Source of the DNA: a virus
Strand: one strand, 5' to 3'
Length of the DNA: 22,548 nucleotides
IMG/VR virus record: IMGVR_UViG_3300047318_000228
Location: 1-22,548 of that record
A program made the position numbers and the translations under genes. The notes beneath the pieces are model-generated. The model saw only the letters and a list, made by a program, of their open reading frames with translations, did no database searches and was not told where the DNA came from. Below are positions 10,117-22,548 of this stretch, piece by piece (position 1 is the first letter of the stretch; each line of letters starts with the position of its first letter).

Positions 10117-10737
10117 ATGCCGAAGTGCCTTCCGAACTGCACCTGCAAGCGCCACTCCAAGGTGGGCAAGTCCTGCCCGGCGGGCTGCACTTGCGCACGC
10201 CACTCGCCGTCCCCGGAACGGGGCCGCCGCATCAGCGAAGCCACGAAGGGCCGCAAGTTCTCTGCCGAACGCCGAGCTGCCTTGAAGTGCGCCGATGGCT
10301 GCACCTGCGCAAAACACACCTTGCGCAACTCCGGCCAGTACCAGCCCGGCTCCGATGGCTTCACCGGCACGCACACGGCGGAGACCCGCGCCAAGCTGGC
10401 CTCGTACACCGGCAAGAAGGCGTCGGCCTACAAGCACGGCCAGTCCGGCACCCTCACCTACGCCACGTGGGCAGCCATGCGAGGACGGTGCTACGACCCC
10501 CGGAACGCCTCGTACCCCAGCTACGGAGCGCGGGGTATCACCGTCTGCGAGCGGTGGCACAACTTCGAGAGCTTCCTCGCCGACATGGGCGAGCGCCCCA
10601 GCAAGGATCACTCCATTGACCGCATTGACGGCAAGGGGAACTACGAGCCCAACAACTGCCGTTGGGCAACCCGGGTGGAGCAGAACGCTAATCGTCCGGA
10701 CCCCGGAGGCTGGGTGAAGCGTCGCCAGCGCGGTTGA
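10117..10737 (+). CDS. HNH homing-type endonuclease with three CX3CXCX2H motifs, 206 aa
   Basis: This is the only rightward gene inside the structural block. Residues 115-189 form an HNH domain of the phage/intron type: YATWAAMRGRC, YPSYGARGITVCERW, then DHSIDRIDGKGNY with H165 as likely catalytic His, and NNCRWAT with N180. The region GRRISEATKGRKFSAERR (36-53) and a partial copy near 86-101 resemble NUMOD3 DNA-binding motifs. Three motifs C4-C8-C10-H13, C20-C24-C26-H29 and C58-C62-C64-H67 each follow CX3CXCX2H and are probably zinc sites. The stop is two bases from the converging tail terminator gene. It is probably a free-standing homing endonuclease that cuts alleles lacking it; the target and activity are inferred. 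Confidence 0.92.
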   Translation: MPKCLPNCTCKRHSKVGKSCPAGCTCARHSPSPERGRRISEATKGRKFSAERRAALKCADGCTCAKHTLRNSGQYQPGSDGFTGTHTAETRAKLASYTGKKASAYKHGQSGTLTYATWAAMRGRCYDPRNASYPSYGARGITVCERWHNFESFLADMGERPSKDHSIDRIDGKGNYEPNNCRWATRVEQNANRPDPGGWVKRRQRG

Positions 10738-21739: not shown

Positions 21740-22156
21740 CTATGCGGCGAGGGCGTCGGCGAGGAGCTGGACGCGGGTGGTGATGGGGCAGTCGACCGGG
21801 TAGAGCACGGTGACGGTGGCGAGGCCGATGGTGCGGGCCGGCTTGTCGGCGGGGGCGGGGCGCTCGACCAGGTAGCGGGTGCGGTGGATCGAGTAGGTCT
21901 GGATGCGGTCCAGCCGGAAGGAGCGGGACTCGCCCGTCGACCTGTCCATCGCCTTGATGACGATGTCTCCGGCGGCGCTGACGGTGAAGTCGTAGATCTC
22001 GACGGTGCGGACGGTCTCGACGAGGCGGCCGGTGCGCTTGCCGTTCTCGTCCTTCTCTTCCTTGAGGTAGGCGAGGGTGGTGGGGTGCTGGCGGTCGGCG
22101 GCCTTGATGAGGCGGGTGAGGGTGGCGGTGGTGGTCTCGCGGCTCGTGCGCCTCAT
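21740..22156 (-). CDS. WYL-like regulatory protein, 138 aa
   Basis: The first leftward gene from the divergent control region. I chose ATG 22156 because GGGGGC precedes it and because the frame upstream crosses the promoter and operator repeats. Residues 1-30 are basic and helical (RRTSRETTTATLTRLIKAAD). Residues 50-95 (VEIYDFTVSAAGDIVIKAMD, then ESRSFRLDRIQTYSI) match the strand pattern and the RxFRLDRI signature of WYL domains, which sense ligands or nucleic acid in phage and defence regulators. The size is smaller than full HTH-WYL proteins and I see no clear HTH. It may act with another DNA-binding protein, such as the adjacent ribbon-helix-helix. Confidence 0.72.
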   Translation of the reverse strand: MRRTSRETTTATLTRLIKAADRQHPTTLAYLKEEKDENGKRTGRLVETVRTVEIYDFTVSAAGDIVIKAMDRSTGESRSFRLDRIQTYSIHRTRYLVERPAPADKPARTIGLATVTVLYPVDCPITTRVQLLADALAA

Positions 22157-22178
22157 CGGTGGTGCCCCCTTGCTCGGT

Positions 22179-22190
22179 GTGTATATACAG
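22179..22190. promoter_or_regulatory. Operator repeat 1 (GTGTATATACAG)
   Basis: An almost perfect palindrome that differs from operator 2 only in the last base. It lies immediately downstream of the leftward -10, over the expected transcription start, where a bound protein would block transcription. Its core GTATATAC fits the GTxTAxAC consensus of HutC-type GntR regulators. Confidence 0.7.
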
Positions 22191-22219
22191 AGACTAGGGC
22201 CTGTGTATATACACGTCAA
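22191..22219 (-). promoter_or_regulatory. Leftward promoter of the WYL-like gene cluster
   Basis: On the minus strand TTGACG (22219-22214) is followed after exactly 17 bases by TAGTCT (22196-22191), a close sigma-70 type pair. Operator 2 lies in the spacer and operator 1 just downstream. It would drive the four small leftward genes and be closed by a repressor. Confidence 0.72.
22203..22214. promoter_or_regulatory. Operator repeat 2 (GTGTATATACAC, perfect palindrome)
   Basis: A perfect 12-bp palindrome centred 24 bp from operator 1. It lies within the spacer of the leftward promoter and touches its -35. Confidence 0.75.
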
Positions 22220-22228
22220 GCCTTTCGC

Positions 22229-22257
22229 TAGACCTAATGCATATACACAACTAGAGT
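22229..22257 (+). promoter_or_regulatory. Rightward promoter of the ribbon-helix-helix gene
   Basis: TAGACC (22229-22234) and TAGAGT (22252-22257) are spaced 17 bases. The -10 ends six bases before ATG 22264, so the mRNA is probably leaderless; no ribosome site is seen. Operator 3 lies in the spacer. Confidence 0.6.
22237..22248. promoter_or_regulatory. Operator repeat 3 (ATGCATATACAC)
   Basis: It matches operator 2 at 10 of 12 positions, is centred 34 bp from it and lies between the rightward -35 and -10. It shares a nearby ACTAG with the flank of operator 1. Confidence 0.6.
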
Positions 22258-22263
22258 TGGCGC

Positions 22264-22461
22264 ATGGCCAAGCAGCGCACCGAGGGACACACGCCCCTCC
22301 GCCAACTCCGCATCCCAGACGACGAATGGAAGCCCTTCGGCGCCGCCGCCGGGGACCGTGAACGCACGCGCATCGTGCGGGAGTTCATCCGCTGGTACGT
22401 CGGCGAAGAGGGAGCCACGCTGCCGGAGCGCCCGGTGAGCAGCGAGGAGAAGAGCGCATGA
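22264..22461 (+). CDS. Ribbon-helix-helix DNA-binding protein, 65 aa
   Basis: The 65-residue protein has the Arc/CopG pattern: a basic strand (PLRQLRIP, residues 11-18), helix A (DDEWKPFGAAAG, 19-30) and helix B (RTRIVREFIRWYVGE, 34-48), then a short acidic tail. Such proteins form dimers that put a beta-ribbon into the major groove. It starts from a probably leaderless promoter whose spacer holds an operator repeat, so it may regulate itself and the divergent WYL-like cluster. The stop overlaps the next start (ATGA), so the two are translationally coupled. No toxin partner is visible in the fragment that follows. Confidence 0.82.
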   Translation: MAKQRTEGHTPLRQLRIPDDEWKPFGAAAGDRERTRIVREFIRWYVGEEGATLPERPVSSEEKSA

Positions 22462-22548
22462 GCCTTCCCAAGTACGGCTGGCCCGTCATGCCGGAGCCCG
22501 TCCGTAACCCGCGTGTGACCTACGAGTCGTGGCTCGCGATCAACTTCG
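22458..22548 (+). CDS. Start of an unknown rightward gene, truncated at the window edge
   Basis: The frame opens at ATG 22458-22460, overlapping the ribbon-helix-helix stop by four bases, and stays open for 30 codons (MSLPKYGWPVMPEPVRNPRV...). The coupling and codon usage support a real gene. The fragment has several Pro and Trp residues and is too short to identify. Confidence 0.6.
   Translation, partial: MSLPKYGWPVMPEPVRNPRVTYESWLAINF

Follow-up and report, generated by a model that had tools for sequence, protein, structure and literature searches.

A probable exchangeable repressor-operator cassette at the head of the late genes in Streptomyces phages

In lambdoid phages the immunity region is exchanged with repressor and operators moving together, and boundary or linker sequences lie at its flanks. 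Early control of the CI type is where phage immunity cassettes are known. Arc and Mnt of phage P22 are very small ribbon-helix-helix (RHH) proteins that adjoin the promoter they control, and they control ant/immI. For Cluster A mycobacteriophages, repressor and stoperator distances follow whole-genome distance and up to 30 sites occur genome-wide (PMC6550527); the Samy prophage paper names a putative immunity repressor. A literature search found no description of the slot reported here, which is weak evidence as most subscription papers lay outside its reach. On this limited evidence, the series of exchangeable repressor-operator cassettes at a late operon appears to be new, whilst immunity-type cassette exchange was already known.

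The DNA analysed (the window) is a 22,548-base IMG/VR record of its own, nearly all of which is one co-directional late gene set. On the minus strand, positions 2-21729 contain small genes followed by those for a terminase-small-like protein, large terminase, portal, head protease, capsid, tail, tape measure and tail protein. At the head of the set, as first late-operon gene, lies a gene for a 138 aa WYL-domain protein (21740-22156, minus strand; Pfam PF13280, E=8e-5), which consists of the WYL domain only, with no HTH. Because the genes are co-directional and a terminator scan gave no matches on the late-gene strand, we infer a single transcript from the WYL gene through the structural genes. 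By eye, an HNH-like endonuclease ORF is also visible within the leftward tail gene cluster, facing the other way (10117-10737, plus strand). Divergent from the WYL gene is a gene for an Arc-like RHH regulator of 65 aa (22264-22461, plus strand), whose relationship to the Arc family is seen by sequence (PHROG 6506 Arc-like repressor, E=1.6e-5) and which lacks an effector domain. Profile matches of this protein to solved RHH proteins are weak. Its monomer model, of modest confidence (pLDDT 71), has an extended segment and then helices at 19-29 and 32-46; a Foldseek search of the PDB with a model of only this pLDDT returned no match. No relatives of the protein were found in PLSDB plasmids.

The WYL and RHH start codons are separated by 107 bp, holding three palindromes and two promoters with 17-bp spacers. 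The leftward, late-operon promoter (TTGACG-N17-TAGTCT; 22191-22219, minus strand) has its -35 at 22214-22219 and its -10 at 22191-22196. The rightward promoter of the RHH gene (TAGACC-N17-TAGAGT; 22229-22257, plus strand) has its -35, which is weak and not conserved in relatives, at 22229-22234 and its -10 at 22252-22257. A generic sigma-70 scan flagged neither promoter. Since the rightward -10 ends 7 nt upstream of the RHH ATG, the RHH mRNA is probably leaderless. Operator OL1 (GTGTATATACAG, 22179-22190) lies over the predicted leftward start point and is kept in relatives. OL2 (GTGTATATACAC, 22203-22214), a perfect palindrome, lies in the leftward spacer and touches the -35 hexamer, and OR (ATGCATATACAC, 22237-22248), an imperfect palindrome, lies in the rightward spacer. 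The spacing is 34 bp from OR to OL2 and 24 bp from OL2 to OL1. A sequence-only reading had proposed a switch made of two divergent promoters, each having operators inside or over it, with exact 17-bp spacers and WYL and RHH genes on either side, and the coordinates and profile matches bear this out. It had also counted three copies of one operator word. Palindromes do occupy both spacers and the leftward start, but the exact word, GTATATAC, is found in OL1 and OL2 only, with no further copies in the 22.5-kb window and in 0 of 100 dinucleotide shuffles of it; OR carries GCATATAC. The imperfect half of OR is invariant in 8 of 8 same-flavour loci, and OR may therefore be a deliberately weaker site. 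A lack of conservation in related phages would have counted against the switch; the repeats are conserved in seven other loci of the same RHH family.

Relatives were drawn from a viral-contig scan (33 WYL relatives), a species-genome scan (11 Streptomyces loci) and a scan for an alternative left gene, encoding a DUF6011/SWIM-like protein (38 loci). Of 393 Streptomyces genomes, 13 have WYL relatives and 16 have SWIM relatives. Promoter and leader are alike in most relatives, whilst the operator words are radically different. Across 66 distinct slots, about 20 regulator families (9 RHH-like and 11 HTH-like, assigned by eye from sequence) were distinguished, each with its own operator word; the loci include near-copies and slot-level counts are not independent. 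PHROG matches back the RHH relationship of R1, R3, R4, R5 and R6 (5e-4 to 8e-8 for R3, R4, R5 and R6 relatives). The HTH-type family H1 gave a confident model (pLDDT 88) with weak PDB matches, several of them to HTH proteins such as KorA, and also has weak Pfam matches, whilst the HTH fold of H7 is backed by weak Pfam and stronger PHROG matches. A GTGN6CAC frame is present in 29 of 33 RHH slots versus 0 of 33 HTH slots (7 of 9 versus 0 of 11 families). Operators of R2 take the form TTG-N6-CAA. The inner bases vary between families, being TATATA (R1), TACGTA (R6), TAGCTA (R7), GTTAAC (R5) and TCATGA (R8), and RHH operator spacing is about 34 and 23-25 bp in R1, R2, R6 and R7. A CRP-type site was also considered for the GTG-N6-CAC operators; the actinobacterial CRP site, which we take to be GTG-N8-CAC, is unlike them.

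The promoter towards the left gene (TTGNNN-N17/18-[T/C]ANNNT) was found in 61 of 66 slots, versus 2.4 in mononucleotide shuffles. Moreover, a -10-like hexamer lies about 12 nt upstream of the regulator start in 34 of 66 slots, versus 9.2 in shuffles, an enrichment which makes leaderless regulator mRNAs likely in many slots. Two WYL slots (L006 2861-3000 and L027 2861-3000) contain repeated words with no recognisable divergent regulator, which may be lost or distant. Further flavours of the slot are seen at L110, L111 and L113, where a larger divergent protein and other repeated words (e.g. CCATAACCTATTG and CAATAGGTTATGG in L110) come before the WYL relatives.

In these computational comparisons the operators followed the divergent regulator. 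Operator distance was strongly correlated with regulator distance in both slot types (Mantel r = 0.81, 28 WYL slots; r = 0.75, 35 SWIM slots; P=0.0002 in both cases with 5000 permutations), versus r = -0.06 (WYL slots) and 0.08 (SWIM slots) for the left gene. Operator k-mers are common to same-family regulator pairs and not to different-family pairs. A closer look at single loci gives the same picture. The L026 locus has a WYL protein 59% identical and an RHH protein 83% identical to those of the window, and the same operators; in L007-L011 the WYL proteins are 86-88% identical and both the divergent gene and the operators are different. The WYL proteins of L016 and L017 are identical and their cassettes unrelated. 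Conversely, L037, L040 and L062 carry the RHH family and three operators of the window before a DUF6011/SWIM-like gene. Families R1, R3, H1, H2, H3, H5 and H6 are seen with both left genes, as are R2, R6 and H7 when further loci are included. On the WYL tree there are at least 19 changes of regulator family, and well-supported branches force 3-5 each for R1, R3, H1 and H2. Loci fetched later behaved as expected: an R6-like RHH gene came with GGTGTACGTACACC before a WYL gene, an R2-like one with TTGTGGCCACAA before a SWIM gene, and H2, H4 and H7 relatives each with their own words. Presumed repressor and operators are exchanged as one unit against a constant neighbour, in the lambdoid manner. 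This comparative evidence points to the RHH protein as the operator binder. Of the two candidates first put forward, RHH or WYL, the former stands because the operators follow its gene. To the extent that sequence can decide it, operator specificity does not come from the WYL protein, because the RHH gene and operators also precede the SWIM-like gene.

Short conserved sequences mark both edges of the cassette. The left boundary (22157-22178, minus strand) is the leader and ribosome-binding region (GAGCAAGGGGGCACCACCG) of the left gene, and the leader GAACGAGGGGG before that gene, which forms the edge, is common to WYL and SWIM genes. The window and L052 (the L037 contig) stay near-identical as far as the leader and are no longer related once the start codon is reached. 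The right boundary (22426-22462, plus strand) comprises the last RHH codons, a ribosome-binding region and the ATGA where the next gene begins, overlapping the RHH gene. This ATGA start and the final 30 nt of the regulator gene are conserved between unrelated RHH and HTH regulators: in 30 RHH/HTH family pairs at least 80% is common in these 30 nt, with upstream windows at background. The right boundary sequence is present once each in the window, BK340 and G002, always at the regulator end, and was not found in the S. fumanus prophage. Each edge includes a ribosome-binding region; translation may therefore preserve these sequences, and recombination may use them as joints.

In the S. fumanus prophage, the BK340 prophage and G002, the early region lies on one side of the slot and the late region, whose genes it heads, on the other. 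G002 is a longer phage record of the window's flavour, and its terminase and portal genes differ from those of the window. Relatives show a temperate lifestyle by integrase and host integration; the S. fumanus prophage carries an integrase (548022-548978, PF00589, E=1.8e-21), one is present in 6 of 16 records, and the window, a fragment, shows none. Inside the S. fumanus phage genome, just before the cassette, are DUF2637/SpdB-like and FtsK-like genes (L091 13763-18194), which are typical of Streptomyces conjugative elements and have similar counterparts in L094-L095 and L097-L098. BK340 has a second RHH gene (L094 7806-8155), where an early gene is preceded by three GGTGTGGCTACACC-type sites. 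One 122-kb contig has two SWIM-type slots (L082 and L083), of flavours R7 and H5, which is consistent with co-resident elements avoiding the same flavour; co-resident cases are few, and in them the flavours differ.

We consider it probable that an autoregulated RHH repressor holds the late operon off and that its cassette is exchanged between phages as a unit. RHH dimers would bind the GTG-N6-CAC palindromes, and at OL1 and OL2 they would cover the leftward -35, -10 and start, so that in the prophage, or at an early stage of infection, the late operon headed by the WYL gene (packaging, capsid, tail) would stay silent. Because the operators cover these elements of a near-consensus promoter, repression by occlusion is the simplest interpretation. 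The regulator's own promoter holds the third site, which points to autoregulation: RHH at OR would limit its own mRNA. Since the protein has no effector domain, repression could possibly be ended by titration via replicating genomes or by an antirepressor. Recombination at the boundary sequences would exchange cassettes, the whole repressor and operator unit being repeatedly replaced by units of other specificity or other fold. The presence of about 20 mostly unrelated cassette versions in one slot suggests that phages swap whole control modules and so change regulatory specificity.

A wider proposal is a good deal more tentative, and we hold it to be doubtful. Streptomyces phages might share a pool of mini-repressor cassettes, about 20 or more in number, mutually orthogonal and drawn from two or more folds. 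They would sit at the late-operon slot and, in at least one phage, at an early-gene slot too. These cassettes would act as late-gene immunity specificities and as a replication-coupled timer, in which the effector-free repressor is diluted by new genomes and late genes start only after replication. Also unlikely is that the cassette is the immunity system proper, its repressor alone setting homoimmunity groups as CI does in lambdoid phages. The large allelic diversity, the exchange as a unit and the differing flavours of L082 and L083 on one contig and of the two BK340 cassettes would all fit such a role. However, control of early lytic promoters was not found, the slot heading late genes, and there are other candidate regulators, such as the early-region RHH cassette of BK340 and a small divergent gene near the S. 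fumanus integrase.

Activation of the late promoter by the small regulator, rather than repression, is very unlikely. Some RHH proteins do activate, AmrZ being both activator and repressor (PMC3325190), but operators placed on the -35, -10 or start of a near-consensus promoter, flavour after flavour, form the classical geometry of repression.

We give hardly any credence to the suggestion, made from sequence alone, that the GTATATAC sites are the target of a GntR/HutC-type regulator whose gene lies elsewhere, in the host or the phage. The operator core does fit GTxTAxAC. This likeness looks coincidental because other RHH flavours share GTG-N6-CAC with different inner bases. In the S. fumanus genome (8.2 Mb), GTGTATATACAC with at most 1 mismatch has 2 sites, both in the cassette. 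The exact word occurs at 4 places in 3 of 393 Streptomyces genomes, two places being the S. fumanus cassette. The other two (L133 1501-1555 and L132 1501-1512) each stand alone in unrelated surroundings, in two further Streptomyces genomes, and probably belong to another regulator; the L133 site adjoins GTGTCTATACGTG, and such a regulator of the word may exist. No further GntR/HutC-type sites were found in the host genome, no scanned window protein matched GntR, and GntR (PF00392) is absent from G002 and G003, both longer phage records of the window's flavour, whilst from phage to phage the operators track the RHH gene. Many WYL proteins are transcription factors and this one is divergently encoded next to the operators, but that it binds them is next to impossible to reconcile with its lack of an HTH, with operators that change wholly beside identical WYL proteins and with their persistence when a DUF6011/SWIM-like gene replaces it.

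The probable reading, an exchanged RHH repressor-operator unit, corrects the first one in that no host GntR protein is necessary. A large allelic series at a late operon, with unrelated folds between the same boundaries, would mean that strong diversifying exchange acts on late-gene control too, and would be a natural source of small orthogonal repressor-operator pairs for use in GC-rich hosts. Moreover, as the RHH alleles have the GTG-N6-CAC frame in common and vary in the inner bases, RHH recognition can be tested directly.

Several described systems share parts of this arrangement. WYL relatives about 39-58% identical are found in the Streptomyces phage-plasmid ZL12 and about 30 Streptomyces plasmids (most 86-100 kb), although ZL12 has a different neighbourhood with a divergent 296-aa gene. 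The isolated Thermobifida phage P1312 (KT021004) has a DUF6011/SWIM-like gene at the same kind of slot, with a divergent MerR/excisionase-like regulator (H7 family) and repeated GTCAAC/GTTGAC words; it differs from the window in regulator flavour and host genus, and the regulator is annotated only as a transcriptional regulator. As with Arc and Mnt of P22, a tiny phage RHH protein adjoins its presumed target promoter, whereas here this is the promoter of a late operon, the sites have a GTG-N6-CAC frame and there are three of them, 34 and 23-25 bp apart. The Cluster A mycobacteriophages, likewise temperate phages of actinobacteria, have repressors and operator words that vary in concert from one phage to another (PMC6550527), but here specificity is uncoupled from the neighbouring gene and the sites are confined to the cassette. 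Lastly, as in lambdoid immunity regions, the repressor-operator unit is mobile, with short conserved flanks and non-homologous alleles at one position; unlike them, the slot heads late genes, its alleles are of two folds and about 20 families, and its boundaries are ribosome-binding regions.
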